DNA of 64,000 nucleotides, from contig OX328097.1 of NCBI GenBank assembly GCA_946811185.2, positions 60,913,063-60,977,062 on the forward strand. Reading direction: 5' to 3'. The translations under genes were made by a program, and so were the position numbers. Numbering within the stretch: position 1 is the first letter of the stretch; each line of letters opens with the position of its first letter. Shown here one piece after another: positions 44,779 to 60,293 of the stretch. Under the pieces are notes generated by a model. That model saw only the letters and a list, made by a program, of their open reading frames with translations. It ran no database searches and had not been told where the DNA came from. The stretch is from Hippopus hippopus (lineage: Eukaryota; Mollusca; Bivalvia; Cardiida; Cardiidae).

Positions 44779-44784
44779 AGCATG
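44779..44784. repeat. Polinton target-site duplication, left (AGCATG)
   Basis: AGCATG directly precedes the AGTAGT terminus, and the identical hexamer follows the right terminus at 62319-62324. Six base pairs is the known Polinton/Maverick duplication length. Confidence 0.92.
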
Positions 44785-45169
44785 AGTAGTAATTATGGCA
44801 CTATGCAGGTCAAATTGCCTGCGGCACTATAGGGGCCAGGCCTTTGTCTTTGACAGTTCAGACTATTGTTAGAGGCCTTTGTCTGTTGGAGGTCAGACTG
44901 TCTGTGGCAATATGACGTAATCTTGCATACCTTTTGTCTGGCTTTCGTTGCCTCCAACCTGCCGAGGCTAGATGACAATTCCAAGCGTGTTTTGGCGCGT
45001 TTTGACCGATCAGGCCGGCGCCCGATTGTATAGAACCGAAAATTCAGCCAAAGCATTCGCCATTGAAAATGCATGAGAACTTTCTCTCAAAGAGGTTGCT
45101 CTACTAAAAATGCTTTTGTCTGTGAACGCTTTTACCCCCCTTACCATTCAAAGTCTAGGTTTTGTATTG

Positions 45170-45470
45170 ACTTTAATGAATAAAATCGTATGGTGTTTAA
45201 CGCCGTTTTCAACATTTTTGTTGCACTTAAGTCGCTGCGGCCAGTGCACCTATACATGCTTTCCAGCAGTATCTTTTACCAGGGCATCATTTTCTTTCCA
45301 AGTCACTGACTGCTGTCTCACATAACCATTATTACGGTCAGCTGTGGTAGAGAAATAAATGGTTTCACAATTTTCAGTCCTCGACCTAGCCAGGGATCGA
45401 AGCCACGACCCATCTCAAGTCCTGCACGCTAGCTATTTAAGAGCTCAGCTTTTAGGTCCTCGCTTCTACA
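45170..45470 (-). mobile_element. SINE inside the Polinton left TIR
   Basis: Minus-strand order: tRNA-like A-box region (TAGCTAGCGTGCAGGACT), B-box region (GTGGCTTCGATCCCTGGC), body (TATTTCTCTACCACAGCTGA, AGTCAGTGACTTGG, GTATAGGTGCACTGGCC) and tail GTTGAAAACGGCGTTAAACA. Same family as 20483-20746. Confidence 0.7.
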
Positions 45471-45668
45471 TGGAAAAGTTTGCGAAAAACTTACTACGAT
45501 CCCCAAATAGCGGTGGCATAATATAAAATTCCCTGTTGGTTTGATCATTAGCTTTCTTAGAAATTCTGATTTTTTTTTTATAATTCATGAGACCTTTCGA
45601 TACTCTCCTGACAGAGTCGCATATCAAAATGATTTAATGTTTGAGAAATGTCGACACTCTTCCACGTG

Positions 45669-45844
45669 ATGTCTGGCGCGATTGTATAATATCGTCTGCA
45701 AAAATTCAGACAAAGCATTCGCCTCTCATTAAAAATGCATGAGAAAATGTCGATATTCTTACAAAATAGGTCGCTTTCCGCTGATTAAAATGCGTTATGT
45801 CTGGCGCGATTGTATAATATCGTCTGCAAAAATTCAGACAAAGC
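45669..45844. repeat. 128-bp subterminal repeats, left (~1.4 copies)
   Basis: The unit contains TGTCTGGCGCGATTGTATAA and ATGCATGAGAAAATGTCGAT. The right TIR side has about 2.6 copies of the same unit at 61103-61436. Confidence 0.8.
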
Positions 45845-45879
45845 GAATAATCAATTGGTCAGATGGAAAAAACAAACTG

Positions 45880-45910
45880 ACCAATCAGAAGAGACTTTGT
45901 GACTATATTA
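45880..45910 (+). promoter_or_regulatory. CCAAT and TATA-like promoter before the PC4-like gene
   Basis: CTGACCAATCAG (inverted copy ATTGGTCAG at about 45855) is followed ~20 bp later by GACTATATTAG, ~60 bp before the first ATG of the plus-strand gene block. It is the natural place for a promoter, just inside the TIR. Confidence 0.45.
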
Positions 45911-45965
45911 GAAAGCTGAATTTCGTGTTTGGAGTCATAAGAGTTTTGACACTCGAATCAGCAAC

Positions 45966-46451
45966 ATGGTTAGATGTAAATTTAGTCTCGGTAACGAACG
46001 CTACGTACAGGTCAGTGAATGGAGGGGTGAACTGAGAGTCGATATCAGGGAATGGCAGGAAGACATACCTACTAAGAAAGGCATTAGTCTTACGCTTATG
46101 AGATGGAAGAATTTGGTAGATGCCTCTGAGTTTGTTGATCAAGCATTACACGGTAAAAAAGCATACAGCGCTCACCTAGGAGGAAACGTTTATTGCAGTA
46201 TCGGTGAAAACAGCGTTTGTGTAGATATAAGACAGTATTGGAAACCAGACAATGAAGTGGTACCGACCAAAAAGGGTATCTGCTTAAGACCCGCTGAATA
46301 TAACTCTCTTAAAAAACACGTGTCAGGGATTGGTAGGAATCTACCCGAGTTGGACGCTGTCATTCCCTGTTACCTTCAAAGTGATCATATGAACCAGTTA
46401 GGGGCGTTGCGGTGTTCTGAATGTAACCCTAACGATAACGGAAACTGGTAA
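45966..46451 (+). CDS. Tandem PC4/p15-like transcription coactivator
   Basis: 161 residues with two PC4-like (positive cofactor 4, Sub1) repeats. Repeat 1 (about 6-55): FSLGNERYVQVSEWRGELRV, DIREW, then PTKKGISLTLMRWKNL. Repeat 2 (about 69-118): GGNVYCSIGENSVCVDIRQY, then PTKKGICLRPAEYNSLKKH. The DIREY/W and KKGISL signatures are those of the PC4 single-stranded-DNA-binding beta-sheet and following helix. A C-terminal CSEC pair follows. Known PC4 proteins dimerise, bind melted DNA and help RNA polymerase II start; a two-repeat chain could form the dimer within one molecule (inference). First gene of the plus-strand block, 120 bp inside the TIR. Confidence 0.8.
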   Translation: MVRCKFSLGNERYVQVSEWRGELRVDIREWQEDIPTKKGISLTLMRWKNLVDASEFVDQALHGKKAYSAHLGGNVYCSIGENSVCVDIRQYWKPDNEVVPTKKGICLRPAEYNSLKKHVSGIGRNLPELDAVIPCYLQSDHMNQLGALRCSECNPNDNGNW

Positions 46452-46493
46452 ATAGGCGCGATTGACAGAATTAACATCGCATTAATAAGCACC

Positions 46494-46883
46494 ATGTTCA
46501 AAGATTCTACAAAAGTGACTGCATATTCGAAGCCAGCCTTGATGTTATGTGAAGATAGACTACAAACGTATGAGCACTGGTCGAAGCAAATAAAGCCTGA
46601 GAAATGGTCATTAGCAAAAGCGGGCTTCTTTTACACCGGTACTGCGGATAAAGTGACGTGTTTTGCCTGTGGTGTCAACATAATGTCATGGGAGGAAAAG
46701 GACGATCCTTGGGAAGAGCACGAAAAATGGTCTCCGTCCTGTATATATTTGAAAATGACGGGATACACGAGTCAAATCACTTCAAGGTGTGATACACAAC
46801 GAAACGCGTCTGTTACCAATGGAAGATTGTCCCGTGACGGTTCTACATATAACTGGAGTGCTTTGAATTCAGCCTTTTTTTAA
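46494..46883 (+). CDS. BIR-domain (IAP-like) protein
   Basis: 129 residues with one BIR zinc-binding domain: RLQTYEHW near 22-29, GFFYTGTADKVTCFACG, then DDPWEEHEKWSPSC. The ligands fit C56, C59, H76 and C83, the CxxC...H(x6)C pattern of inhibitor-of-apoptosis proteins. No RING or second BIR follows, and the C-terminal 40 residues look disordered. DNA viruses of arthropods use BIR proteins to block caspases. BIR genes are reported in adintovirus-like elements, so a role in delaying host-cell death is a reasonable inference. It lies 43 bp downstream of the PC4-like gene. Confidence 0.88.
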   Translation: MFKDSTKVTAYSKPALMLCEDRLQTYEHWSKQIKPEKWSLAKAGFFYTGTADKVTCFACGVNIMSWEEKDDPWEEHEKWSPSCIYLKMTGYTSQITSRCDTQRNASVTNGRLSRDGSTYNWSALNSAFF

Positions 46884-46896
46884 AACCGATGTGAAC

Positions 46897-47061
46897 ATGT
46901 TCGGACTCATTCTTATATTTGTGACAACAATGAATGACTTCGAATTGTGGTTGAAATACAGACAATTGCGAAGAGACGCCGCGGAGGGTGTTGAAAGGCT
47001 CGTTGGCTTGTATATAGAAAACGAAAGAAACCTCTCTATTTACTATTTCTATTTGATGTAG
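46897..47061 (+). CDS. Small ORF, 54 codons, unknown
   Basis: MFGLILIFVTTMNDFELWLK, then a charged helix-like segment (YRQLRRDAAEGVERL) to TAG at 47059-47061. The hydrophobic start could be a membrane anchor. It fits the gap between the BIR and integrase genes and keeps the same strand, but no family is recognised; it may be chance. Confidence 0.35.
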   Translation: MFGLILIFVTTMNDFELWLKYRQLRRDAAEGVERLVGLYIENERNLSIYYFYLM

Positions 47062-47095
47062 TAAGAATGTATGGATGTCTATGTAATAAATAAAC

Positions 47096-48208
47096 ATGTC
47101 TGACTGGCAACAATATTTGTCTTCTTTGTATTTTGACTTAAAATCTCCCGCTAGCTATGGTGGTCCTGAAAAACTCTATCAACATGTTAAAGACGAGGGT
47201 AAATACAAAATTGGCAGGCACAGAATACGCCAATGGTTGCAGAATCAAGAAGCGTATTCTCTGACCAGGGGTGCTAGACGCCGCTTTAAACGTTCCAGGG
47301 TGATTGTAAATGGCATCGACAGTCAATGGGACATGGATCTTATGGACATGGCCAATTTACAGAAGCATAACGAAGGTGTGAAATACATTTTGATTGTTAT
47401 CGATGTATTTTCTCGTTTTCTTTATGCTCAACCTGTTAAGAGTAAGCGAGGCGCTGATGTAGTCATGGCATTGAAACGTATACTGACAGGCCCCAAAAAG
47501 CCAAACACAATTCGTACGGACAGAGGAATGGAATTTAGAAGTAAAGAAGTAAATAAATATTTAAATAGTCAAAGTATACATCATATGTACGCATATAATA
47601 CGGAAACAAAAGCAAATTACGCGGAAAGAGTTATTAAAACGCTAAAACACAAGATTTTTCGATACCTGCTCAAAAACAGAACTAGTAGATACATTGACAT
47701 TTTACAGGATTTTGTACATAGTTACAATCACACTCACCACAGGAGTCTTGGAGAAAACCCAGCAGCAATTTCCGTGAAAAATGAAGGGGAAAGTCGTCTT
47801 CAACAGTATCTCATTAGAACCAAAGGAAGCAAAGGGGAAAAGCCCGTTATAAAAAAATTCAAATATAAAATCGGCCAGACTGTACGATTGTCACACATCA
47901 GGTCCGTATTTGACAGAGAATACTCGCAAAAATGGACAGGGGAGATTTTCAAAATCAGATCACGTTTCAAAAGACAAGGACTTCCAATTTACACGTTAGT
48001 AGACTGGGACAACGATGAAATTGATGGTACATTTTACGAACAAGAATTACAAGCCATAAACGTTGACGACGGTACCGACTTTAGCATCGAAAAAATTTTG
48101 AAAAGAAGGACACGCAATAAGAAACAGGAAGTCCTGGTGCGCTGGTTACACTGGCCAAAAAAGTATGACAGCTGGATACCGGAAACTGATATTAAGCAAT
48201 ACTCGTAA
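47096..48208 (+). CDS. Polinton integrase (rve) with C-terminal chromodomain
   Basis: 370 residues. An HTH-like, basic N-terminal region (about 20-70) is followed by an RNase-H-fold integrase core (about 75-225): WDMDLMDM with D81, TDRGMEF with D142 and NYAERVIKTLK with E177, giving D-x60-D-x34-E. GQTVRLSHIRSVFDREYSQK at about 260-280 resembles the SH3-like segment. A chromodomain ends the protein (FSIEKILKRR, QEVLVRWLHWPKKYDSWIPE). It catalyses joining of the excised or replicated element ends to target DNA with 6-bp staggered cuts; the chromodomain may steer insertion to modified histones. The frame is intact and all three acids are present. Confidence 0.95.
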   Translation: MSDWQQYLSSLYFDLKSPASYGGPEKLYQHVKDEGKYKIGRHRIRQWLQNQEAYSLTRGARRRFKRSRVIVNGIDSQWDMDLMDMANLQKHNEGVKYILIVIDVFSRFLYAQPVKSKRGADVVMALKRILTGPKKPNTIRTDRGMEFRSKEVNKYLNSQSIHHMYAYNTETKANYAERVIKTLKHKIFRYLLKNRTSRYIDILQDFVHSYNHTHHRSLGENPAAISVKNEGESRLQQYLIRTKGSKGEKPVIKKFKYKIGQTVRLSHIRSVFDREYSQKWTGEIFKIRSRFKRQGLPIYTLVDWDNDEIDGTFYEQELQAINVDDGTDFSIEKILKRRTRNKKQEVLVRWLHWPKKYDSWIPETDIKQYS

Positions 48209-48218
48209 ACAACCGAGA

Positions 48219-48229
48219 ATATAAAAAGA
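48219..48229 (+). promoter_or_regulatory. TATA-like box before the TBP-like gene
   Basis: AATATAAAAAG lies 15 bp upstream of the first ATG (48245) and ~60 bp upstream of the second in-frame ATG (48281). A start site 25-30 bp downstream of the box would fall near 48250 and favour the second ATG. Confidence 0.4.
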
Positions 48230-48244
48230 GGCTGAAAACTAGCA

Positions 48245-48808
48245 ATGTTCTATCATTTATGTCTAGACAGTCAAACGATCATGATCATCACAAACGTGCT
48301 TTACAGCGCTCAACTCAACTGTCCTATTGATTTAAGACAACTCTGCTCCAAAATAACGAATGTACGGTATGATCCAGCACGATTTCCCGGACTGATATGG
48401 CAACACAGAAAAGCTGGAGGAAACTGTTTAGTGTTTTCTAACGGTATTATCAACTGTAACGGCAAAGTTTCGAGTAAAAGAGAGGGGTACGAACGAATAC
48501 GGAAATATGCGAGACTGATACAGAATTGTGGATATCCAGTGAATTTATCGGACGTGAAACTTTTAACCATGTCTATGAGCCATACCCTCAGTTCGGATTT
48601 GGATTTGAAGCGTTTGTCTGTCGATAAAGATGTCGTATACGAATCCCAGTTATTTCCTTCTCTTAACTTTAAAAGGGAAGGGGTGCATTTTTGTTGTTTT
48701 CATACAGGGAAAGTGGTCATAACGGGTGTAACCTCTTCACAAAAAGAGGACGAGATTGTTTGTCCCACACTAATTGAACTCGAACTCTATACGCGTAAGA
48801 AGGAATGA
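48245..48808 (+). CDS. TATA-box-binding protein (TBP) homologue
   Basis: 187 residues from the first ATG, 175 from the ATG at 48281, which would begin exactly at the TBP core. Two direct TBP repeats are visible. Repeat 1: IITNVLYSAQLNCPIDLRQL, RYDPARFPGLIW, CLVFSNGIINCNGK, RKYARLIQNCGYP. Repeat 2: VKLLTMSMS, YESQLFPSLNF, FCCFHTGKVVITG, ELELY. The four phenylalanines that kink the TATA minor groove correspond to F47, F64, F137 and F152. There is no long N-terminal tail. Known TBPs nucleate RNA polymerase I/II/III initiation. In this element it probably directs transcription of element genes (inference). The stop overlaps the next ATG as ATGA (48805-48808). It is diverged from animal TBP, so it is not a recent host pseudogene. 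Confidence 0.87.
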   Translation: MFYHLCLDSQTIMIITNVLYSAQLNCPIDLRQLCSKITNVRYDPARFPGLIWQHRKAGGNCLVFSNGIINCNGKVSSKREGYERIRKYARLIQNCGYPVNLSDVKLLTMSMSHTLSSDLDLKRLSVDKDVVYESQLFPSLNFKREGVHFCCFHTGKVVITGVTSSQKEDEIVCPTLIELELYTRKKE

Positions 48809-49176
48809 GTATTTTAACCGATTCAATCATGGAACACTCTACAGTCTATTTACAAATCGCTTATTTACTTCACCTACAAGAGACCGAAACAACGGTAAGG
48901 AAGAATTTACTGCAGAATTTAACGAATCGTCAACTAAAGGCTATCATCGAGGTGGCAAAACGTATACTTAATGGAGTCATTAATCCAATGAGAAGAGATG
49001 TTCAAGTTTTTGAAAGAAGGAGACTATTGTTACGCACACTATGCTCAAATAACGTTTCATCAACCCGTAAGAAGACTTTACTTCGACGATTTCATTCATT
49101 TATACCCATTTTATTACGCCCAGTTTATCTCATTCCTACTATACTAGACCAATTGAGAACAAGGAGAGAAGAATGA
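48805..49176 (+). CDS. Conserved small Polinton protein, paralogue A
   Basis: 123 residues, helical and Arg/Leu-rich: NLLQNLTNRQLKAIIEVAKR, then a basic stretch RRDVQVFERRRLLLRTLCSN, STRKKTLLRRFHSFIPILLR and PVYLIPTIL. Its layout matches the 107-residue protein at 51512-51835 (LLKTITRQQLRALSQIAYNI, LKRQRRFIYLL, LQPVL), so the two are paralogues on opposite strands. Small proteins with a QLxALxEIA...LxPVL pattern recur in animal Polintons beside capsid genes; their role is unknown, and a DNA-condensing core protein is a guess. The ATG overlaps the TBP stop, and the stop overlaps the next ATG (ATGA both times). Confidence 0.65.
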   Translation: MSILTDSIMEHSTVYLQIAYLLHLQETETTVRKNLLQNLTNRQLKAIIEVAKRILNGVINPMRRDVQVFERRRLLLRTLCSNNVSSTRKKTLLRRFHSFIPILLRPVYLIPTILDQLRTRREE

Positions 49177-49598
49177 CAGAGTTTTACTTGTATTTAAATT
49201 CCGCAGAATCTATCGATATACGTAAGAATAACGCAGATTTCTTGTTCCAGTTTTCTAAGGACTATATTTTAGAAGGAAGTTGGTTATGTGCTCTGGTAGA
49301 ATCGTCATTGACCTGCGACTTTACACCTCAAAGTAAGCGGTTGTATTTGAATTGTGACATTATAGAGGAAACGTTTGTCAGGAATAAGTTACAACCCGTT
49401 CTCACCAATATAGAAATCGAAACAAGATACAAGAAATTTAAATTTACGGAATGTCTTCATCGACGTTATAGACCCGTGAGTGTCAAGAAATTTAACACTA
49501 TTAGGCTGTCGTTAAAAGGCGAAGATTTAAAACCGATTGATTTGAATTCGAACGATTTTCACTGTGTCCTTCATTTCAAGAAATCATGGGTTCCATAG
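49173..49598 (+). CDS. Penton-like minor capsid candidate, compact
   Basis: 141 residues. The start (FYLYLNSAES, ADFLFQFSKDYILEGSWLCA, LVESSL) resembles the opening strands of Polinton/adintovirus penton-type minor capsid proteins, where a FYVxLPSN...F...LxxPIxLxGxWEVAL pattern is usual. The end (YRPVSVKKFNTIRLSLKG, then FHCVLHFKK) resembles their closing strands. A standard Polinton penton is several times longer, so this is either a minimal single jelly roll or a shortened version. It lies directly before the capsid candidate, as in other Polintons. It overlaps the next gene by 13 bp. Confidence 0.55.
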   Translation: MTEFYLYLNSAESIDIRKNNADFLFQFSKDYILEGSWLCALVESSLTCDFTPQSKRLYLNCDIIEETFVRNKLQPVLTNIEIETRYKKFKFTECLHRRYRPVSVKKFNTIRLSLKGEDLKPIDLNSNDFHCVLHFKKSWVP

Positions 49599-49930
49599 AC
49601 GTCTTTGATTCAAAACTACAGAAGTGGGTTCCGTACAAAGAAGATGTGGAGTATTGGATTGATTATTTTAAACCGAAAGACCACATCCCAGATCAAATAA
49701 GGAATTTGGAGAAAATACTAGAAGAAAAGAATAAACTGCTGCGAGATATGGAAGAAAAACTTGAAAAAGTCAAAACTCCTCAGGTAAAAATGGTGAGCCC
49801 ACTAGCCGAAGTAGTTGATAGGGCAAAATCTCAAATAAAACGTAAGAACGGTGTTGACGAAGATCGTAAGAATATCAAGCGTAAGAAGACTCACAAAACG
49901 TATCGCAAAGATCCCGACTGGGCATTTTGA
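49586..49930 (+). CDS. Coiled-coil, basic small protein
   Basis: 114 residues. N-terminal segment IDVFDSKLQKWVPYKEDVEY, a clear coiled coil at about 40-65 (LEKILEEKNKLLRDMEEKLE), then VSPLAEVVDRAKSQIKRKNG and a very basic end (KNIKRKKTHKTYRKDPDW). It could be a virion core or cement protein by position and charge, but no domain is recognised. Three of the CGTAAGAA octamers discussed in the findings lie in its 3' half, each coding Arg-Lys. The following ATG is 9 bp after the stop. Confidence 0.6.
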   Translation: MGSIDVFDSKLQKWVPYKEDVEYWIDYFKPKDHIPDQIRNLEKILEEKNKLLRDMEEKLEKVKTPQVKMVSPLAEVVDRAKSQIKRKNGVDEDRKNIKRKKTHKTYRKDPDWAF

Positions 49931-49939
49931 AAAATTAGC

Positions 49940-51202
49940 ATGAATAGTAAAATTCAGCACAGTGAAGAATTATCGTTATTTAATCCGATCCCGAAAGATT
50001 CGTCATTGTTATCGAAAGATTGGATCGAATTCCGACCCATTAATCCGGTAACCGATTCTTCATCGAGCTTGGAATTTAATATACCGCCACAGGCCAGCGC
50101 CTACATCAACTTGAAGGAATGTAAATTGAGGGTGAAATTGAGACTCGCTTTACAAGACGGTACACCCGTGTCAGAAGATGATACGCTGGGACTTATCAAT
50201 TTACCTTTGCACACCATTTTCAGACAGCTGGACATTCATTTACAACAAAAACCACTCCCGAATAGCGGAACCACGCATCCGTATAAGACCTACATTGACA
50301 CCTTATTAAATACCAATCAATCTATACAGGAAGCTTTTCTGACCAGTCAATTATTCTACAAGGATTATCGGAATCTGGACGATAGCGACCCCAAAACTGG
50401 ATCAAATACCGGTTTATTCCAAAGATATGAAAAGACCAAGGGTGGTAAAATTATAGATCTGGAAGGAAGTATCCCGGTGGACTTGTTTCAACAACCCAAG
50501 TTGCTTATTAACGGAGTGCAAATGGGGCTTAAATTTTGGCAAGCATCCGATGCCTTTCGAATCATTACAGATGCGTTTACTCCGAATTACAAGGTGCAAA
50601 TCGTTGACGCCCGTTTCAAGCTCTGTATTCAGCGGTTACAGAACGATTTGCTTCTGGCTCACGACAAAATGATTCAGGACACTCCCGCTATGTACCCATA
50701 TTTCCGCTCAGAGATAAAAACAACCTCGATAGCGCAAGGACAATATAGTTTTCACGCAGACGATATATTTCAAGGTAGGGTGCCAAACAAAATCATCATA
50801 GGGACGGTTGCGAGCGTTTCATATAACGGAGACTACAAAACAAACCCATTCAACCTGAAACATTACGACTGCAGTTACCTCGGTTTCTTCGTTGATGGCC
50901 AATCCGTACCATCGCAACCTTTGCAACCTAATTTTGAAGGAAATCATTTCACCGACTGTTATCAGACCCTCACTTCCTGTAGAAATGATATCAACATCAC
51001 ATACAAAGAGTACAAGCAAGGATACTGCCTATATGTGCTGGATATCGATCCCTACTATTCTTTCAACACAAAAAGAAGAGGTCTTTGCCGTTTGGAAATC
51101 GAATTTGCTAAACCTTTACCAGAGAGTGTGACATTGTTGCTGTACGCTACCTTTCCAGAAATACTTACAATCGATAAAGCGAGAAATGTGTATATACAAT
51201 AA
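49940..51202 (+). CDS. Major capsid protein candidate (F54H12.2-like family)
   Basis: 420 residues, intact. Beta-rich, with signatures seen in the capsid-type protein of many animal Polintons (database name uncharacterized protein F54H12.2-like): SLFNPIPKDSSLLSKDWIEF, INLPLHTIFRQLDIHL, YKTYIDTLLNT, LLINGVQMGLKFW, APNYKVQIVDAR-type region, FNTKRRGLCRLEIEF and LLLYATFPEIL. In this lineage it occupies the place of the double-jelly-roll capsid, between the penton-like gene and the packaging ATPase. The double-jelly-roll fold is inferred from family and context, not visible directly. It ends at 51202 with AATAAA overlapping the stop; converging genes lie beyond. Confidence 0.78.
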   Translation: MNSKIQHSEELSLFNPIPKDSSLLSKDWIEFRPINPVTDSSSSLEFNIPPQASAYINLKECKLRVKLRLALQDGTPVSEDDTLGLINLPLHTIFRQLDIHLQQKPLPNSGTTHPYKTYIDTLLNTNQSIQEAFLTSQLFYKDYRNLDDSDPKTGSNTGLFQRYEKTKGGKIIDLEGSIPVDLFQQPKLLINGVQMGLKFWQASDAFRIITDAFTPNYKVQIVDARFKLCIQRLQNDLLLAHDKMIQDTPAMYPYFRSEIKTTSIAQGQYSFHADDIFQGRVPNKIIIGTVASVSYNGDYKTNPFNLKHYDCSYLGFFVDGQSVPSQPLQPNFEGNHFTDCYQTLTSCRNDINITYKEYKQGYCLYVLDIDPYYSFNTKRRGLCRLEIEFAKPLPESVTLLLYATFPEILTIDKARNVYIQ

Positions 51203-51323
51203 ATACGGAGGGAAATAATAAAAAAAACCCCACACACACACAATGACTCATGCCTTCTTTTATACTTTTATTGTATTATTCTGTTAATAAAAATATAAAA
51301 TCATGAAATTGTCGAGTCGTTAT
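51203..51323. terminator. Convergent 3' ends with poly(A) signals on both strands
   Basis: AATAAA at 51200-51205 and AATAAAAAAA at about 51218 serve the plus strand. TTTATT at about 51267 (AATAAA on the minus strand) serves the minus block. An ACACACAC run lies between them. Confidence 0.5.
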
Positions 51324-51512
51324 TCAATAAGAAATCCAGTCTATATCTTTCTTTCGTTTCTTCTCTCTAAGTCCCGGAGGAAATAGTGTTAATTTCTTAT
51401 TCTTCTTTTTCGAGGTATCTTCCCTTTCCTCTCTCTGCTGATCATCTTGTCTCCCAGATAGTTTTTTCAATCGCTCAAACTTTTCGAAAGGCACTAATAC
51501 ATATTTCTCCAT
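51324..51512 (-). CDS. Small conserved Polinton ORF, 62 codons
   Basis: Starts MEKYVLVPFEKFERLKKLSG, continues with a charged QREEREDTSKKKNKK stretch, and ends PPGLREKKRKKDIDWISY. A VLVPxEKxxRL opening and a PPG...W tail are seen in small proteins next to capsid genes of other Polintons; function unknown. Its ATG overlaps the upstream stop by one base (TAATG). Confidence 0.55.
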   Translation of the reverse strand: MEKYVLVPFEKFERLKKLSGRQDDQQREEREDTSKKKNKKLTLFPPGLREKKRKKDIDWISY

Positions 51513-51835
51513 TACTGTAATACGGGTTGTAAGTAGGCTGAAGCAATCTTCACCAATGTATGGATAATACGTTGTTTATGTTGGATAGCTTCCTTCTTTT
51601 TAACAAACCCCGTGTTACGATCTCCAAGCAAGTAAATAAAGCGTCTCTGCCTCTTTAAGGTGGCTTTTTCCGTAAGTGTCAATCTACCTTTGAACCGGAT
51701 AATGTTGTACGCAATTTGACTAAGCGCCCTTAGCTGTTGACGGGTAATAGTTTTTAAAAGCGCTTTTCTCTGGTCGGCTGTAGTGTTGGCCACTAAATAT
51801 AAAAAGTGACGTTGCTGTTTAATTAGTTTTACCAT
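51512..51835 (-). CDS. Conserved small Polinton protein, paralogue B
   Basis: 107 residues: MVKLIKQQRHFLYLVANTTA, RKALLKTITRQQLRALSQIA, LTEKATLKRQRRFIYLLGD, KKKEAIQHKQRIIHTL, YLQPVL. Clearly the same family as 48805-49176, and closer to what I know of the family elsewhere. Predicted mostly helical and strongly basic. It sits 32 bp downstream of the ATPase stop in the minus-strand block. Confidence 0.65.
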   Translation of the reverse strand: MVKLIKQQRHFLYLVANTTADQRKALLKTITRQQLRALSQIAYNIIRFKGRLTLTEKATLKRQRRFIYLLGDRNTGFVKKKEAIQHKQRIIHTLVKIASAYLQPVLQ

Positions 51836-51867
51836 ATTGTATTCTTATAAGCTATTTATTTCCATTC

Positions 51868-52521
51868 TTACGTCAAACGGTACACAATAGGATCTTCGTT
51901 GGGAAATATACGAGTCCTTAAACGGTACTTGTCGTCGGAGTAAGGGGACATGTCCACTATGAAATAACCGTGTCTCGTATTAAGGGCATCTTCGTAAGCC
52001 TTCATAAACACTCCGGATTTACCGGGATAAAGCTGCCGTCCTAGCACTCCTACTTGAGATATGTCACGAATATTTTTCATAAGCACCAGATACCATGTAT
52101 TCAAAGCTATAGTTCTGGCATGTTTACCCCCAGGGTATAAGTTTTGTGTGATCATAATCACCGATACTTTTCTGTGATGGCAGCCTTGGGTGAACAGTAA
52201 CTCCATTTCTTTACTCCGCATGACCTCGTGCATTAGGTCGTCTAAAATGATTAACTTGTGTTTTTTGTCTCTTGTGAAGTCATCCAATTCTTCTGCAGTA
52301 GGTAGTCCTTGCTTACTGTCAAAGTTTGGAATGGAACTCTCCATGACATCAAACAAGTCTTGGTGGATACCGTAGCAATAGAGAATATGAGAAGGGGGGT
52401 CCCGTCCGTACATGAGGTTTACTTGTTTCAAAAAGCGGTACACCCATTGGGTTTTACCACTACCAGTTTGTCCGCTAATACACATACTAGAACATGGTTC
52501 GAATGGAAGAGGGTCGGCCAT
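51868..52521 (-). CDS. FtsK/HerA-type genome-packaging ATPase
   Basis: 217 residues. Walker A GQTGSGKT at 17-24, Walker B LIILDD at 90-95, and a sensor-like MITQNLYPGG at 123-131, followed by a conserved NTWYLVLMKN and VGVLGRQLYPGKS. This is the A32-like packaging ATPase shared by Polintons, adintoviruses and virophages. It pumps element DNA into preformed capsids. Its ATG overlaps the stop of the upstream membrane-protein gene by one base (TAATG), and its TAA stop is embedded in ACGTAAGAATGG. Confidence 0.93.
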   Translation of the reverse strand: MADPLPFEPCSSMCISGQTGSGKTQWVYRFLKQVNLMYGRDPPSHILYCYGIHQDLFDVMESSIPNFDSKQGLPTAEELDDFTRDKKHKLIILDDLMHEVMRSKEMELLFTQGCHHRKVSVIMITQNLYPGGKHARTIALNTWYLVLMKNIRDISQVGVLGRQLYPGKSGVFMKAYEDALNTRHGYFIVDMSPYSDDKYRLRTRIFPNEDPIVYRLT

Positions 52522-52781
52522 TATTTTTTAAGTCTAGGGTTAGGCAAAGCGTACCCGATACTGCTACTCAAGAGTGATACCCAAAGCTCGGTCGACCCGT
52601 TTTGCACTGATAGGTTAATGATGGACGTAATAATAATGATGTACACTATGATCATCTGACAAAAGTAGACAATCTCTGCTTGGGGGACACGGGTGCCCAG
52701 TAAATGCCACTTGTCACTATGGCTTTCTTCGTCAGGTTTAGGGAAACGTAAAAACGTTTCTTTTTCGGGAGTTTCTGTCAT
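52521..52781 (-). CDS. Conserved single-span membrane protein of Polintons
   Basis: 86 residues: acidic start (MTETPEKETFLRFPKPDEES), DKWHLLGTRVPQAEIVYFCQ leading into one transmembrane helix (MIIVYIIIITSIINLSV, about 63-79 of the reading), then LWVSLLSSSIGYALPNPRLK. The W(H)LLGTRVPxAEIVYFCQ and LLSSxIGYxLPNP blocks recur in animal Polintons just upstream of the ATPase. A virion or entry/membrane role is possible but unproven. The upstream leader reads AACGTAAGAAT immediately before the ATG. Confidence 0.7.
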   Translation of the reverse strand: MTETPEKETFLRFPKPDEESHSDKWHLLGTRVPQAEIVYFCQMIIVYIIIITSIINLSVQNGSTELWVSLLSSSIGYALPNPRLKK

Positions 52782-52884
52782 ATTCTTACGTTAGATTAAC
52801 TCAAAACACAAAAAGAAACTCATTCTTACAATTTTTTATTTATAAGCAATACAATTATCACGTTAACAAATAAAATAAACAACA

Positions 52885-53105
52885 GTTGGTATCTAGAAAA
52901 ATAAGCGACACTTTTAAGAAAATGAGTGACACTTTTTTGAAAATGAGTGACACTTTTAGGAAAATGAGTGACACTTTTTGAAACAGACCCTATGGGAATT
53001 TACCTGTAAAAGTATAAAAACGTAAAAACGAGTGACACTTTTTGAAAAATGAGTGACACTTTTTGAAAAATGACTAACACCTTTTTTTGAAAAATGATTG
53101 ACATT
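52885..53105. repeat. ~22-bp direct repeats upstream of the packaging block
   Basis: About eight copies of GAAAATGAGTGACACTTTTT with small changes, in two groups separated by ~50 bp (about 52905-52985 and 53028-53100). They lie between the polymerase stop and the membrane-protein start, so they could be promoter elements for the minus-strand packaging genes or iteron-like sites. Confidence 0.7.
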
Positions 53106-53139
53106 GAACAACCCACGAACAAAAAAAAAAAAGATTACA

Positions 53140-55284
53140 TCAGTCATATCCATATGGTACAGTGTCATAATTGTCTAGTTTCCTTCGCTTTGTATACACC
53201 ATTTGATAACTTTTCTTTTCTTCTCTATTATACAATTTCCTCTTTCTTTTGTCTCTACATATTTTACATGGGTTGGTTACAACAATATTTGAACTACTTT
53301 TTGAATCTGTTACTATAGCTTTCACGGCTTCAAAATTGATTAGTTTGCTATTAGTGTAGTTCAAAGTAAACCCTCTGACCTTACATGTTTCCTCGTTGGT
53401 ACTGGTCTTATATGCGTAATTCTTTGGACCTCCTGACACAAATTCTACAATATGCTCTCCTTGCTCCAGTTCATCCGTCAACTCACCCAAGTAGTCCCCT
53501 AAGGGAGGATCAAACTCTCCGGGTCTACTCACGTAAATGACAGAGTCCGTGTCGTAGTACAACACTCTTTTATTCAACTTTTCGAGCACACTGTACAATT
53601 TTAATCGGGCCCAACATGTTGTAAAGGTCGCCAAGTAAATGTTTGTTTCGTTGTCTTCGGGGTGAAAGTCATGTTTATAAATCCACTCTATTTGTATCAT
53701 ATCATTTGAGAGTATATGAAAGTTCAGAGGCTCTTTTGTAGGATCAGAAAATACTTGAAAAAATAAGTTTGCTTGACTCTCGTGATATATTTTGGTTTGA
53801 CGCATATTGAGTCTCTGTCCAAACTTACCCCAAAAGCTATTGAGACAAAGTTTGGCCAGAGCTCTTTTGCCAGGGTTTTTTACAATGCTGTTTTGATCCA
53901 GCAATACACCCTCTTTTTTATGATAATCTTCCATGTATTTTGTCATGTCTTGTTTCGTTTTGACCCAATCAGGAGGGCCACTCGCCTCTTGCTTAAATTT
54001 CAAAAACGTGTTGATATACTTGGCGAATAATCCCCCATCACCCGTCTCAGGATTATACTGTGTTGTTTCCTCCCAGTGGTATACTTCATATATTTTTTCT
54101 AGTGTGTAACCCAGTCTTAGAGCCGTTTTTATCTCGGGGATGCACCACGTGCCAATTAAAACCCTGTCTTCAGAAGAACATGTACATGAATCTTGATTCT
54201 CGGTATCCGCACAGGTACGACATAGAGGAAATTTCAGTTTGCCATTTGATCTATAGGGGAGGACTGGATGATACAGCCCTCTCGGGGGTAATGTCTTTAT
54301 TTTGGCAATACCAAAATACTCCTCAAGCTTCCCGAAGTCTTTGGTCAAGATTTTGGGGTGACCTACGGGATACCGACAATACTTGTTCACCCAAGGGTAC
54401 AAACTTGTAAAGTCTACGTATTTGACCTGTTCATGTTCTTTGGTTTTGTAATAGAGTTGACTGGCATTAGTGCGCCCTCCGAAGAAACTCTCTCTTGGAT
54501 CTAATCGGTCAGCTACATCTAATTGTGCAATGCATTCTTTGAGTTCTTCATTTTCGTCCTTTAATTTTTTGAAGTCATGGTCCCAAATACACACATACTT
54601 CATGCCTAATTGCTCGAGGTATGCTTTCTTTTTTAGAGTCAGAGCATACAATTCATTCAGTGATTGATTGGTGAGGGGGTGATACGTGTCCTCTCGTTTG
54701 TCTGGGAAACACACAGGGCATCCGTGAAACACACATCCGTGGTACTCGTATGCTGTGTGTGTTTCTTCACAATATCCATCTAATTTGTATCGTGTTCCTG
54801 GTATCTTTTTTTCACCTTCATTCAGTGCATGCTGAATGTGTACATGGTCTGTAAGCGCTCGCCACTCTAACCACTGAATTGACACCTTACTGTATTGTTC
54901 TTTGTATCCACTGGGAGGAATCTTTGCTATCGGGGTGCTTACAAATTCTTTACCCTTGACTTTCAATTTTGCTGCACTCACCCATTCATCTTTCACCAGT
55001 ACATACAATACTCCCTCACATAGTTTGGCTGGGATCCATTCATCAGTGTCATACAATTGTACCTTCCACTTTTCTTCTAGAAATTTACTTCTAAACACAT
55101 TCATGCATACTGATGCAATCGTAACACTGTCGAAAGGATCTACGGCCCCAAACCACCTTTTTTCAGTCTTTCCCTTTCCATTTATGACCTCTTTTTCTTC
55201 TCCCGTTGCATTCATTAACAAATATCTAAATTTCAAACATGCTTGTCTTAATATATCAACATCACTTCTACAATATTCTAACAT
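53140..55284 (-). CDS. Protein-primed DNA polymerase B, C-terminal part (after nonsense codon)
   Basis: 714 codons counted from the first ATG after the TAG at 55312-55314; the frame itself is open from directly after that TAG. It carries Exo III (YCRSDVDILR at the start), a zinc-containing VFHGCPVCFP segment, polymerase motif A with D291 (DFTSLYP), motif B (KLCLNSFWGKFG, about 478-489) and motif C with D578 and D580 (YDTDS). The TPR-type insertions typical of protein-primed enzymes are expected between motifs A and B, where ~150 residues are found. It would replicate the element DNA from a protein primer. All polymerase acids are intact; the break upstream separates it from Exo I and Exo II. 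Confidence 0.92.
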   Translation of the reverse strand: MLEYCRSDVDILRQACLKFRYLLMNATGEEKEVINGKGKTEKRWFGAVDPFDSVTIASVCMNVFRSKFLEEKWKVQLYDTDEWIPAKLCEGVLYVLVKDEWVSAAKLKVKGKEFVSTPIAKIPPSGYKEQYSKVSIQWLEWRALTDHVHIQHALNEGEKKIPGTRYKLDGYCEETHTAYEYHGCVFHGCPVCFPDKREDTYHPLTNQSLNELYALTLKKKAYLEQLGMKYVCIWDHDFKKLKDENEELKECIAQLDVADRLDPRESFFGGRTNASQLYYKTKEHEQVKYVDFTSLYPWVNKYCRYPVGHPKILTKDFGKLEEYFGIAKIKTLPPRGLYHPVLPYRSNGKLKFPLCRTCADTENQDSCTCSSEDRVLIGTWCIPEIKTALRLGYTLEKIYEVYHWEETTQYNPETGDGGLFAKYINTFLKFKQEASGPPDWVKTKQDMTKYMEDYHKKEGVLLDQNSIVKNPGKRALAKLCLNSFWGKFGQRLNMRQTKIYHESQANLFFQVFSDPTKEPLNFHILSNDMIQIEWIYKHDFHPEDNETNIYLATFTTCWARLKLYSVLEKLNKRVLYYDTDSVIYVSRPGEFDPPLGDYLGELTDELEQGEHIVEFVSGGPKNYAYKTSTNEETCKVRGFTLNYTNSKLINFEAVKAIVTDSKSSSNIVVTNPCKICRDKRKRKLYNREEKKSYQMVYTKRRKLDNYDTVPYGYD

Positions 55285-55311
55285 CTCTTTTCTAAAATCA
55301 AAAACTTCACA

Positions 55312-57915
55312 CTATCTCTGTTTCAACCACTCTACTAACTCGCTTCTTTCTTTCTCACCCATGAAATTGTAACCATAATCTTTAGCATCAGGGTAGGGCC
55401 CAACATAATTTTGATTCTCTCTGGTATTAAAATAATGTGGGAACCACCCTTTTTTCAATTCATGTAAACCAAATGCTTTGGGTAATGCTGACAGTTTCAT
55501 GGGTAAGAAGTTAAGACTGTCTATTACCTTGATATGTAAGTCTCGCTCTACTGTCATGTACATTATCTTGGACCCGTTGTAAATAATTTTGTCTGGCCGT
55601 AATGACTGATCAACGAGGTACTCTAGCAGAAAGTAACCGTCATAACCTTTCATGTTATGAGCAACCACCTTGCAGTACTCGTGTTGTTCCGTAAATAACC
55701 ATTGCCCAAACTGTTCAGCAGTATCATGTCCCTGGAAAGTGACTTCTCTAAAGCCACATGTCCCTGGACAAGGTCCCAAATCTTTCTCATCCAGATTTTT
55801 TTGACATTTTTTACAACGGCTACCGCATCTCTTACATACTGATTTGGCAGTCAATTCATTGTCAATACATTTTGGGCATACCGAATGAGCTAAGACAAAG
55901 TTGGGACGATGCGTAGTTTTACCGCACCATGACGTGTTGCAGTTTTTACACTTAGAACAAGACTTACATACCTGTGATGGTTGACAATCTGCGCATTCTA
56001 TTTTCTTTTGCGGTATGTATCCATTCTCGCACTCACTCATATCATCCTGACTACACTCAAAATCAAAAAATATATATTTAGGTATAAACTTGTCCTTACA
56101 TTCTTTCGCTCTTAAATAACACTGATGATCGTCCAACACATACTTTTTACAAGTCTTACAAAAGTATTCCCCACACACATGGTCCTCCTTCTTCCTTATG
56201 TCCGTCCTTAGTACCTTGTAACACCTGAAACACCTCCACCACTTTTCACACTGGGAAGGCCCACTGGGTTGACCTTTTCTCCTTCCATTTTTGTGTAAGG
56301 GTACTTTCTTGTGTTGTTTGTAACAATCATCTGACCTACAGTCCATGTTACAATCTGTGCACCTCAGAGTCTTGTTCGTTTTAGGGCAGTGGTCCCTCTT
56401 GCACACTATACATTTTTCTGCACACTGGTGATATTCCCTATTACTATAGTGTTTGAGACATTTTTCACAAAAATAGGAGTCGCTAAAAAACCCAGTGATG
56501 TTTGTTATGGCATGAAAGTGGTCGTCGTCCACCAAGTACACGTAGATACAGGGACGCCCGTCACTGCTAGGACCAGTAATAAATTTATTGCCTAGGCGAG
56601 CGCTGATGACCATCACGCGTACTCCTAGGATTTCCTCAAATGCCTCCACATCGTTGAGACTAGCTGTTCGGTCTATGGGTACGCCTGCCATCTTACACAG
56701 AGCCCTTGCCAGCTGTCCTTGGTGTTTCTTCTTCTTTTTGACAAGGTCGTTATAGTAAGACAAGGGGACTTTTTGATATTCTAAAACCAACTCCAAGCTA
56801 CTTTTTCCCTGTCTGTTTTTCGTTACCTCCTCCCATTCTTCCTTGGTACACCTCTTTAATTTTGCCCAGCTGACTCCAATGGCCCTTGCCATACACATTT
56901 TATCTTCATTCTCAATAGTCACTACCGAGCGTTTTAAATCCAATGAAGTGTTTTCACCTTTAATACGTATGATATGTTTTCGCTTGCCTCCTTTAGGTAG
57001 GTCAATGGTTCCTATTATTATATCAAAGGTCTCATCGATCGAAAGTTCCTGGTTACTATTGAGTACCTTTTCGAGGATCTCCATAACTCTATTAGCGTCA
57101 AGGGTATCCCACTTCTGTAAAGGGACGACAACAGGGTTGTGCAAAGCATCGTGATATATCACGACACGACCTAGATCATTCCCCTGTAGGTGTCCTCGGG
57201 CCTCGTTAAGGGCTGCCTGGATCATGTCATGAAGTCCCTGCCTCACGTCTATTAACCGCTGACCATTGTACCGCTCATCCAATTTTACTTGATATGTTGT
57301 ATCTATTGCTGCATTTTTGGCATATGTGCGGGTGTCCTTCTTTCTCATTGTGTATTTCAGTTTGTTGTCGTTCTGTAGACCGGAGGGTCCCGCCCGTGGC
57401 TCTTCCCCTTCCCCTGTCTGAACAAATGGATCGTCCCAATCACCATCTTCCAAACACAACCTTGCTGTCTCGTTCATATCGTCATCAAAAAGATCGTTCT
57501 GTAGACCGGAGGGTCCCGCCCGTGGCTCTTCCCCTCCCCCTGTCTGAACAAATGGATCGTCCCAATCACCATCTTCCAAACACAACCTTGCTGTCTCGTT
57601 CATATCGTCATCAAAAAGAAGGGCTTTGACAGCTCCATCAATTTCCTCCTGTATTTGTACATACTCTAGCGATACGACCATGTCCTCCTCGTTAAAAGTA
57701 ACCGGAGTCTGGATACGTCCACCTAGGGTTTGCAGCACCAAGTCCATTTGTTCTTCGATAAACTCATTATCATATTCCTGTTGTCTCAGCTGGAAAAGTC
57801 TAAGTCTTACAGACACGGAATCCTGGATCCCCATGGTCGTTGCAAAGTCCATAAGCTCATCCGGATCCGTATAAGAGTTTATCATAACGTCCATTATTTC
57901 AGCCACAGCGTCCAT
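55312..57915 (-). CDS. Protein-primed DNA polymerase B, N-terminal part, ends at in-frame TAG
   Basis: 867 codons. An acidic N-terminus includes a near-perfect 42-residue tandem duplication (about 101-142 and 143-184; LCLEDGDWDDPFVQTG in both). Then come a conserved N-terminal domain (about 205-470), a Cys/His-rich zinc region (about 480-600), Exo I (IFFDFEC, D618/E620), a large CxxC-rich insertion (about 640-720) and Exo II (AHNMKGYDGYF, about 752-762). It stops after VEWLKQR at TAG 55312-55314; the downstream part stays in the same frame, so a single point mutation explains the break. A TATATAAG box lies 53-60 bp upstream of the ATG. Confidence 0.92.
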   Translation of the reverse strand: MDAVAEIMDVMINSYTDPDELMDFATTMGIQDSVSVRLRLFQLRQQEYDNEFIEEQMDLVLQTLGGRIQTPVTFNEEDMVVSLEYVQIQEEIDGAVKALLFDDDMNETARLCLEDGDWDDPFVQTGGGEEPRAGPSGLQNDLFDDDMNETARLCLEDGDWDDPFVQTGEGEEPRAGPSGLQNDNKLKYTMRKKDTRTYAKNAAIDTTYQVKLDERYNGQRLIDVRQGLHDMIQAALNEARGHLQGNDLGRVVIYHDALHNPVVVPLQKWDTLDANRVMEILEKVLNSNQELSIDETFDIIIGTIDLPKGGKRKHIIRIKGENTSLDLKRSVVTIENEDKMCMARAIGVSWAKLKRCTKEEWEEVTKNRQGKSSLELVLEYQKVPLSYYNDLVKKKKKHQGQLARALCKMAGVPIDRTASLNDVEAFEEILGVRVMVISARLGNKFITGPSSDGRPCIYVYLVDDDHFHAITNITGFFSDSYFCEKCLKHYSNREYHQCAEKCIVCKRDHCPKTNKTLRCTDCNMDCRSDDCYKQHKKVPLHKNGRRKGQPSGPSQCEKWWRCFRCYKVLRTDIRKKEDHVCGEYFCKTCKKYVLDDHQCYLRAKECKDKFIPKYIFFDFECSQDDMSECENGYIPQKKIECADCQPSQVCKSCSKCKNCNTSWCGKTTHRPNFVLAHSVCPKCIDNELTAKSVCKRCGSRCKKCQKNLDEKDLGPCPGTCGFREVTFQGHDTAEQFGQWLFTEQHEYCKVVAHNMKGYDGYFLLEYLVDQSLRPDKIIYNGSKIMYMTVERDLHIKVIDSLNFLPMKLSALPKAFGLHELKKGWFPHYFNTRENQNYVGPYPDAKDYGYNFMGEKERSELVEWLKQR
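57372..57623. repeat. 126-bp in-frame tandem duplication in the polymerase gene
   Basis: GTTCTGTAGACCGGAGGGTC starts at 57370 and again at 57496, and the two units differ at about one position (a GGG/GAG Gly-to-Glu change). It adds 42 residues without a frameshift. The near-identity says the duplication is recent. Confidence 0.85.
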
Positions 57916-57966
57916 GTTGCTCGATTGAAATCTGAAAACAGAATAGGTATGTTACCGAGTGTGTCT

Positions 57967-57975
57967 TCTTATATA
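57967..57975 (-). promoter_or_regulatory. TATA box of the polymerase gene
   Basis: The minus strand reads GAGTATATAAGAAG, with the box ~55 bp upstream of the polymerase ATG at 57915, a good core-promoter geometry. Confidence 0.55.
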
Positions 57976-58024
57976 CTCTCCATTAGCCTCGTTTTGAGAA
58001 AGAGCTATTTTTAGATATACTAAT

Positions 58025-59330
58025 TTAATACAGGCATACAATATATGAAATCGGGGTAAAAGGCACCCGCTGAAGTCATTTCTTTAGTCAGAAAATGGAT
58101 TTTATCGTGTTTTAAGTGAAATTTACTTTCGAATTTGATCATAGATGATAAGAACAGCCTCAATGACATTTTATCTAACAAGTTATCTCCAATACCTTCA
58201 TACCTAATTTGAAAATTTTTATTTCTTGATTTAAAATGAAATATAGCGACAGTAGTATGTAATGTAATATATGAAATCGGGGTAAAAGACATCCGCTGAA
58301 GTCATTTCTGTAGTCAGAAAATGGATTTTGTCGTGTTTTAAACGAAATTTACTTTCGAATTTGATCATAGATGATAAGAACAGGCTCAATGACATTTTAT
58401 CTAACAAGTGATCTCCAATACCTTTATACCTAATTTGAAAATTTTTATTTCTTGATTTAAAATGAAATATAGCGACAGCAGTATGTAATGTAATATATGG
58501 AATCGGGGTAAAAGGCACCCGCTGAAGTCATTTCTGTAGTCAGAAAATGGATTTTGTCGTGTTTTAAACGAAATTCACTGTCGAATTTGATCATAGATGA
58601 TAAGAACAGGCTCAATGACATTTTATCTGACAAGTGATCTCCAATACCTTTATACTTAATTTGAAAATTTTTATTTCTTGATTTAAAATGAAATATAGCG
58701 ACAGCAGTATGTAATGTAATATATGGAATCGGGGTAAAAGAAATCAGCTGAAGTCATTTCTGTAGTCAGAAAATGGATTTTGTCGTGTTTTAAACGAAAT
58801 TTACTTTCGAATTTGATCATAGATGATAAGAACAGGCTCAATGACATTTTATCTGACAAGTGATCTCCAATACCTTTATACCTAATTTGAATTTTTTTAT
58901 TTCTTGATTTAAAATGAAATATAGCGACAGCTGTATGTAATGTAATATATGAAATCGGGGTAAAAGACACCCGCTGAAGTCATTTCTGTAGTCAGAAAAT
59001 GGATTTTGTCGTGTTTTAAACGAAATTCACTTTCGAATTTGATCATAGATGATAAGAACAGGCTCAATGACATTTTATCTGACAAGTGATCTCTAATACC
59101 TTTATACCTAATTTTTTTTTTTCTTAATTTAAAATGACATACAGCAACACTTGTATGGAATGCAATATATGAAATCGGGGTAAAAGGCATCCGCTAAAGT
59201 CATTTCTTTGGTCAAAAAATGGATGTTTTTCTCGCTTTTTAAACGAAATTCATGTTAGAATTTGATCATAGATGATAAGAACATGCTCAATGACATTTTA
59301 TCTGACAAATTATCTCATATAGAGATAAAA
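58025..59330. repeat. ~226-bp tandem array between divergent genes
   Basis: Six units, each with ATGAAATCGGGGTAAAAGGC (starting about 58043, 58267, 58495, 58722, 58948 and 59167), GATCATAGATGATAAGAACA and TAATTTGAAAATTTTTATTT. The middle units are ~97% alike; the outer ones are more diverged. On the minus strand each unit is open for ~95 codons, but frames do not connect and there is no domain, so I treat it as non-coding. It fills the space between the divergent polymerase and metalloprotease genes. Confidence 0.8.
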
Positions 59331-59654
59331 GTTGAAAATCGACGTTCGGCGTAAATTCAAAAAGATTTTATCACTCAAAACTTGATTGCAATTTGTAACA
59401 TTAGGTAAACAATTGTTACAAATTAGACTTACACGTTCATATATATGCAAAAATTAAAAGCCAGGTGTTTTTCTGCAGATGTTTTAAATTTTTCAAAACG
59501 GAAAAGTCACTTTAGATTTAATATCAAACAGTGTCTGGTTGCACAAAAGTAGCACATTGTTAAATCGAGGATTTCGAAAAGAAAAATTGACGAAGTTTGT
59601 TTCAGCATATTTATTTCAATTTTGGGCACCTCTTCTTTTTACTGAAACTGAAGG

Positions 59655-60293
59655 ATGGATATTCTAAATTTACTGGAAATTATAGTTATGTTTCATGCGA
59701 TAGACATTAACCTTATAGAAGCTTTACGTTTTCTTTTAACAACAGGGATAGGACCATTCAAGTGCAAAGAGATGCGAGTCTCTTTATTTCACTTTTCAGG
59801 GTCACAATGGGTGAAAGAAGACATCACCTACCAACCACCCAAGTTCACTGATAAACGATGCCAAGTAATGATCTGTAGGGTTAATTCTTTTTTCGATGCT
59901 TTAATTGAACAGAACTCCTATGATGCGTTTGTAGAATATAGCAAAGAACTTATAGCTCAATTAATGTTCTGTCTACATACAAGAAGTACAGATAAAAAAC
60001 AATTACACATTTATTTACACCCTGAAAAAGATTCGAATGATAATGGCTTCACAAAGTATGCTGGTCCTGAATTTAATGAAATACACATTTTTTGTGGCAA
60101 TATGAACTCAAAAAGACAGTGTGCCGGAACAATTATACACGAGATGGGACATGCAATATTGCCAATTGGGAATGGACATAACAATTTTTGGTTCACAACA
60201 ACCGCATGTCTCATGGCTGCTGCAAACTTATTTGTCACAAATAGATCAAAAGAAATGCCCGTGGTTTCAATCACGGGATCAAATATACAATAA
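59655..60293 (+). CDS. Zinc metalloprotease-like protein (HExxH)
   Basis: 212 residues. The motif TIIHEMGHAILPIGNGHNNF gives H162, E163 and H166, with H175 as a possible third ligand, followed by FW and a hydrophobic helix (TTACLMAAANLFV). HExxH with a downstream GHxxFW resembles SprT/WLM-type DNA-protein-crosslink proteases more than metzincins, which have HExxHxxGxxH. The N-terminal 150 residues are not recognised. The gene is alone on the right side of the element. Polintons normally carry an adenain-like cysteine protease to mature capsids; I see none here, so this enzyme could stand in for it or could process the polymerase terminal protein (both inference). Confidence 0.7.
   Translation: MDILNLLEIIVMFHAIDINLIEALRFLLTTGIGPFKCKEMRVSLFHFSGSQWVKEDITYQPPKFTDKRCQVMICRVNSFFDALIEQNSYDAFVEYSKELIAQLMFCLHTRSTDKKQLHIYLHPEKDSNDNGFTKYAGPEFNEIHIFCGNMNSKRQCAGTIIHEMGHAILPIGNGHNNFWFTTTACLMAAANLFVTNRSKEMPVVSITGSNIQ

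Follow-up and report, generated by a model that had tools for sequence, protein, structure and literature searches.

The stretch of DNA analysed here (the window) comprises 64,000 nucleotides of a contig of the bivalve Hippopus hippopus and contains a Polinton with both of its ends, spanning positions 44785 to 62318 (17,534 bp). The left terminal inverted repeat (44785–45844, forward strand), which begins AGTAGTAATT, and the right terminal inverted repeat (61256–62318, reverse strand) are 99.5% identical over 1,063 alignment columns, and the element is flanked at both ends by a 6-bp target-site duplication, AGCATG (left copy 44779–44784, right copy 62319–62324). These repeats and the duplication, together with genes for an integrase, an A32-type packaging ATPase, and a family-B DNA polymerase, identify the element as a Polinton. 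A 128-bp repeat forms arrays of unequal length in the two inverted repeats, its copies being more numerous at the inner end of the right one (61103–61435) than at that of the left (45665–45844).

Counting inward from the left repeat, the first gene (45966–46451, forward strand) encodes a protein with two PC4 (p15 coactivator) stretches in tandem (PF02229, E = 2.7e-27) and a C-terminal Cys/His tail that is conserved in an alignment of 11 sequences. It is followed on the same strand by a gene for a BIR-domain protein of the inhibitor-of-apoptosis type (46494–46883; PF00653, E = 8.7e-25) and by one for a retroviral-type integrase with a C-terminal chromodomain (47096–48208; PF00665, 5.6e-14, and PF00385, 3.2e-9). 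Next, still on the forward strand, lies a gene for a homologue of the TATA-box-binding protein (TBP; 48245–48808), whose stop codon overlaps, as ATGA, the start of a further ORF (48805–49176). An earlier note on this DNA had described the overlap and had called the neighbouring gene structural in type; the overlap is present, but the label found no counterpart, as this ORF matches no Pfam family at the cut-off.

Three more ORFs occupy the forward strand beyond this point, at 49173–49598, 49586–49930 (no Pfam family at the cut-off), and 49940–51202. The first of them is a candidate penton-like or minor capsid protein and the last a candidate major capsid protein, in both cases only by resemblance; neither matched a Pfam or PHROGs family, and a single-sequence AlphaFold2 (AF2) model of 49940–51202, made without an alignment, was uninformative (pLDDT 31.5). 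The reverse strand carries an ORF at 51512–51835, the A32-type packaging ATPase gene (51868–52521; PF04665, E = 1.5e-6, 28.3 bits against a cut-off of 22.8), and the family-B DNA polymerase gene (53140–57915), which is divided by an in-frame stop codon into two ORFs (53140–55284 and 55312–57915), both matched by PF03175 (2.1e-28 and 7.1e-12). The protein of 51512–51835 is weakly similar to that of 48805–49176 on the opposite strand (24% over 96 residues, E = 6e-5, in a single comparison), and the two ORFs perhaps reflect an old duplication. No adenovirus-type cysteine protease, TFIIB, or RNA polymerase subunit was found among the 16 ORFs of the element that were scanned with Pfam.

Near the right repeat lies an ORF (59655–60293, forward strand) with an HEMGH motif, which is metallopeptidase-like by eye and matches no Pfam family. 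Tandem arrays are present just upstream of the polymerase gene (58040–59316; 5.7 copies of a 226-bp unit, 93% matches) and in the polymerase ORF, within its N-terminal part (57368–57619; 2.0 copies of a 126-bp unit, 99%).

TATA-box-like sites that are candidate promoters were located 61 nt before the conserved start of the TBP gene (TATAAAAA, 48220–48227, forward strand) and 60 nt before the polymerase ATG (TATATAAG, 57968–57975, reverse strand). The motif TATAWAWR occurs at 15 sites in the element and falls within 150 nt before 2 of 12 gene starts, a list that we drew up ourselves and in which the capsid names are guesses; about 0.8 gene starts with such a site are expected from its density, as calculated by hand. 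With 15 sites and 12 starts, TATA-like sites are thus not enriched above chance before the genes of the element. A TBP with altered groove residues, such as the one described below, need not read TATA.

The TBP gene and its predicted fold

The TBP ORF (48245–48808) is intact over its 187 codons. PF00352 matches two stretches of it (E = 2.4e-25; 88.6 bits, cut-off 22.9), and a phmmer search against PDB chains returned 35 distinct sequences at E ≤ 1 (best 1.1e-18), human TBP matching at 1e-18. The matched sequences are named TBP or TBP fusions, with the exception of one called merely ECU04_1440. A profile of the family built around the window protein improved the best match among PDB sequences to 3.8e-30; no PHROGs family was found for the window protein. 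An AF2 model based on a 32-sequence alignment predicts the TBP saddle (mean pLDDT 91.7, pTM 0.81). Foldseek matched this model to 44 PDB chains at E ≤ 0.001 (best E = 9.7e-17; 1qn3 and 1cdw at about 1e-16), and its TBP matches, which include the TBPs of Arabidopsis, human, and yeast as well as archaeal ones, have query-normalised TM scores of 0.74–0.84. A TBP homologue had been proposed in the earlier note from the letters of the sequence. The proposal is confirmed by the presence of PF00352 in both repeats, by the PDB sequence matches, and by a predicted fold that corresponds to solved TBPs. The same Pfam, PDB, fold, and Foldseek results leave virtually no room for a chance ORF that happens to resemble TBP. 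We conclude that the ORF encodes a TBP homologue, its fold being predicted.

The conserved start of the protein is probably Met13 (48281), because this column holds Met in 57 of the 69 full-length sequences of the family described below (window included) and because the first 10 residues of the ORF are modelled with a pLDDT of about 43.

Relatives, gene order, and origin

In a phmmer search over 5.8 billion proteins (E ≤ 0.001), 111 relatives were found besides the window ORF. All but one (P0002–P0111) are of the window type and are 41–99% identical to it over the matched part; the exception, P0112, is a TBP of the cellular kind from Caenorhabditis (33%). The window ORF and the 110 relatives were screened for full length, and 69 of these 111 rows passed; identity between pairs of full-length members falls as low as 38%. 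Clusters of relatives with 198 and 288 members suggest a high TBP copy number in some genomes. Two relatives come from Mercenaria mercenaria. One of them, P0040, is annotated at NCBI as TATA-box-binding protein-like 1 and groups with the Polinton family in our tree, so such genes may mislead counts of host genes.

Searches of viral contigs (IMG/VR) gave no match to the TBP query, to the capsid candidate, ATPase, integrase, or C-terminal polymerase piece, or to a mixed TBP alignment and a PC4 alignment. No match was found in a phage collection, nor in genome contigs searched with the mixed TBP alignment. Alignment A1 retrieved from IMG/VR one TBP of haloarchaeal type, on a 76.8-kb contig (L001, 9647–10261), which shares 63% identity with a TBP of a Halobacteriaceae genome. 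When this halovirus TBP was used as a query against genome contigs, the best 80 of 420 relatives were considered, and 12 were used in the tree. TBP genes also appear in three genome bins titled bacteria (L015, L032, and L070), where they are probably archaeal contamination of the bins.

Some of the window-type relatives are fused to neighbouring sequence and reveal gene order, since decaying copies of mobile elements join their neighbours. In P0105 and P0110, integrase sequence precedes TBP (E = 5e-15 and 2e-21 to window positions 47852–48097), and in P0111 and P0055 a relative of ORF 48805–49176 follows it (E = 3e-35 and 1e-3); P0046 continues out of frame into the region downstream of TBP. 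The integrase and TBP matches of P0105 and P0110 overlap by about 15–21 residues, and both lack the beginning of TBP, which marks them as rearranged copies, although their gene order still agrees. Further relatives are truncated. Apart from the four joined to the integrase or to the next ORF, the relatives gave no clear match to the neighbouring genes, as is to be expected of single proteins without flanks. Integrase, TBP, and next ORF seem to have been inherited in this order, parts of which are recovered in 4 of the 110 relatives. That the TBP gene is part of the element, as the earlier note had argued from its neighbours, is borne out by the inverted repeats, by the 6-bp duplication, and by the four relatives joined to the integrase or to the next ORF. 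The gene belongs to a lineage of animal Polintons (adintovirus-like elements) and evolves along with it; the lineage is apparently a bivalve one, as the named relatives of the TBP (Mercenaria) and of the PC4 protein (Ruditapes, Mactra, and Mytilus) suggest.

The position of the TBP gene directly after the integrase, both here and in two relatives, could also speak for a role outside transcription. The TBP fold bends DNA, and the protein might bend or mark the DNA of the element for replication of its linear ends, for integration, or for packaging. We consider this improbable, since the conserved TFIIB-type stirrup described below and the presence of a PC4 coactivator gene in the element point instead to transcription, which is the role that we favour.

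Phylogenetic analysis was based on a 98-row tree comprising 69 full-length family rows, 16 cellular TBPs, 12 archaeal TBPs, and the halovirus-type TBP L001. The cellular rows were obtained by choosing 20 of 120 listed and dropping P0204, P0185, P0220, and P0112, in which no core was detected. They include animals and a plant and no named mollusc; the sampling of the trees likewise excludes TBPL1/TRF2, giant-virus, and mirusvirus TBPs. The 69 Polinton-type TBPs, including that of the window, form a single clade (100/100) whose stem measures 1.72 changes per column. A second clade (100/98) holds the 16 cellular TBPs, and a third (95/93) the 12 archaeal TBPs together with the halovirus-type TBP, which groups with haloarchaeal sequences and apart from the Polinton family. 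The same three groups were recovered in the 48-row set used for the AU test (25 of the 69 family rows, 16 cellular rows, 13 of which were counted as animal, P0210 and P0221 among them, and 7 archaeal rows). The window TBP is 26–30% identical to the 16 cellular TBPs, which are about 71% or more identical among themselves.

This level of identity and the clade placement exclude a recent copy of any of the sampled cellular TBPs. Nesting among recent host copies, which the earlier note had named as a finding that would count against its proposal, is not what was obtained with the 16 cellular TBPs sampled: in comparison with cellular and archaeal sequences the Polinton-type TBPs form a separate clade of their own. 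The AU test did not reject a forced grouping of the family with the 13 animal-type TBPs (p = 0.201), and both trees have long branches that meet; an old capture of TBP from an animal host, followed by fast change, is therefore possible. A deep origin of the Polinton TBP family is possible as well.

An old capture could have left a mere passenger, that is, a host copy of TBP or TBP-like 1 (TRF2) carried without function, and the NCBI name of P0040 and the AU result both lend themselves to that explanation. We judge it very improbable in view of the low identity to cellular TBPs that are themselves so alike, the well-separated clade with its long stem, and a pattern of residues that appears constrained, which is set out in the following section.

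Residue pattern and proposed function

The assignment of TBP residues to contacts with TFIIB, TFIIA, and the DNA groove follows what is generally described for TBP and is assumed to hold here. Phenylalanine occupies all four intercalating positions in the window copy, in agreement with the earlier note. In the family it is found at both repeat-1 positions in 69 of 69 sequences each, and at the two repeat-2 positions in 60 and 66 of 69. Among the groove residues of repeat 1, Asn is kept in 67 of 69 sequences and Val in 65 (Leu in the window copy), and Thr is replaced by Asn in 54 and present in 2. In repeat 2, Asn has been replaced by Thr (68/69) and Val by Ser (65/69), and Thr is kept (68/69). 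A pair of groove Asn residues, one per repeat, is a contact-residue feature of canonical TBP and does not define the Pfam family; in the Polinton family repeat 1 keeps its Asn and repeat 2 has Thr.

On the protein-facing surfaces, the E/P/E of the TFIIB-facing stirrup is found in 59, 64, and 62 of the 69 sequences, followed by Leu or Ile in 63, whereas the TFIIA side has Arg in place of Glu in 61 and Gly in place of the loop Arg in 66. Strand ends of the type GK(V)VxTG, which the earlier note had seen in the protein, occur in repeat 2 (GKVVITG) but not in repeat 1 (GIINCNG). The median net charge of the family is +9, compared with +15 for cellular TBPs, and that of the window protein is +7.

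Replacements so uniform across a deep family suggest directed change and not the scatter of decay, and the pattern supports the view that the TBP family is under constraint. The window copy itself departs from it in the stirrup, which reads YESQLF as against YEPELF in the family and YEPQLF in its near-twin P0002; this may be an early lesion. Because of this stirrup, the Leu in place of Val in repeat 1, and the in-frame stop codon in the polymerase gene, this copy of the Polinton may be defective.

A family that is less basic than cellular TBPs, and that keeps the TFIIB-facing stirrup with its groove and TFIIA side changed, might also provide a decoy, binding host TFIIB or factors that regulate TBP and so lowering host transcription (shut-off) without driving promoters of the element. 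The BIR protein encoded in the same element suggests host manipulation and would suit such a role. A protein acting purely as a decoy, however, would have no need of the intercalating phenylalanines (69, 69, 60, and 66 of 69) or of the repeat-1 Asn (67/69), and we regard the decoy as unlikely.

PC4 is a coactivator that binds single-stranded DNA. The PC4 protein of the element has 276 homologues at E ≤ 0.001; the best 120 of these include sequences from Ruditapes, Mactra, and Mytilus, and also a cluster (P0267) of 796 member sequences, whose size suggests a very high PC4 copy number. Contigs with lengths of 9,321 and 2,449,102 were noticed by eye to recur among the TBP relatives (P0053 and P0005) and the PC4 relatives (P0275 and P0240). 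This suggests that TBP and PC4 sit together in other elements too, equal lengths being circumstantial.

We lean towards a role in transcription initiation, in which the TBP of the element would replace host TBP at the element's promoters and recruit host TFIIB and RNA polymerase II (Pol II), with PC4 assisting. The protein would be made when the element is active, would bind the minor groove of promoter DNA by inserting its phenylalanines, and would present the face that is gripped by TFIIB, thereby bringing host TFIIB and Pol II to promoters of the element; the PC4-type protein would work in the same initiation process. Because the TFIIA-facing residues and several groove residues (in both repeats, mostly in repeat 2) are changed, we further propose that promoters of the element would be preferred over those of the host and that the protein would escape from some host regulators of TBP. 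A more specific version is offered tentatively: the element-encoded TBP and the tandem PC4 protein might constitute an initiation module that reprograms host Pol II onto a non-canonical element promoter, with altered DNA specificity, the TFIIB face kept, and the TFIIA face dropped. Possession of its own TBP and of a second transcription-factor gene suggests, as far as gene content can indicate, that the Polinton steers its own expression and does so not only via the promoter-recognition protein of its host; the earlier note had likewise proposed that the gene would let the element choose its promoters.

A transposon-sized element in whose 16 scanned ORFs neither TFIIB nor RNA polymerase was found carries a constrained TBP together with PC4, and if the proposal is true, an element of about 17 kb would achieve a two-factor take-over of Pol II. 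If the protein works, it would constitute a natural test of what is needed of TBP for Pol II recruitment, with the phenylalanines and TFIIB face kept and the TFIIA face changed. The gene also offers a handle on Polinton expression, about which, to our knowledge, little is known, and a marker for this branch of elements in shellfish genomes.

Comparison with known systems

The element shares with animal Polintons/Mavericks and adintoviruses its inverted repeats, 6-bp duplication, integrase, DNA polymerase B, and A32 ATPase. With cellular TBP, the Polinton TBP shares the two-repeat saddle fold, the intercalating phenylalanines, the repeat-1 Asn, the Arg and Tyr of helix H2, and the TFIIB-facing stirrup. 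It differs from cellular TBP in its low identity (26–30%), in being less basic, and in having no N-terminal domain; Asn and Val of repeat 2 have given way to Thr and Ser, Thr of repeat 1 is mostly Asn, Glu and Arg on the TFIIA side are Arg and Gly, and repeat 2 has short gaps. TBPL1/TRF2 has lost the intercalating phenylalanines, and in this respect the Polinton family, which keeps them, is unlike it.

A virus-encoded TBP fold is shared with the giant-virus TBPs of Heterosigma akashiwo virus 01, Ectocarpus siliculosus virus, CpV-BQ1, and megavirus. The best structural match to a virus TBP (1e-11, TM 0.74, 22% identity) compares with 1e-16, TM 0.82, and 25% for cellular TBPs, the E-values being only roughly comparable because the structure libraries differ.

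TBPs have been described in mirusviruses or mirusvirus-like elements and in giant and algal viruses (PMC11464507, PMC10132985, PMC12085832, PMC4602308; accessible portions), and in mirusviruses they are found in 59% of genomes (PMC10132985, accessible portion). No TBP or PC4 is described in an animal Polinton in the accessible portions of the open-licence literature (PMC10675990, PMC12220804, PMC11464507, PMC7786948, PMC10132985, PMC12085832, PMC4602308, PMC11640650), in keeping with the earlier note, which knew of no TBP in an animal Polinton or adintovirus. Within the same portions of that literature, what is new is a TBP in an animal Polinton; viral TBPs as such were already known.

Several large viruses that have TBP also encode TFIIB (PMC11464507, PMC12085832, PMC4602308), and some carry RNA polymerase as well (PMC11464507), according to the portions of these papers available. 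The Polinton, with no TFIIB or RNA polymerase found among its 16 scanned ORFs, is unlike such giant viruses. The closest parallel in mechanism is offered by the giant virus CpV-BQ1, which encodes TBP and TFIIB and whose authors, in the available portion of their paper, propose a redirection of host RNA polymerase (PMC12085832), the same mechanism as is proposed here for the Polinton TBP.
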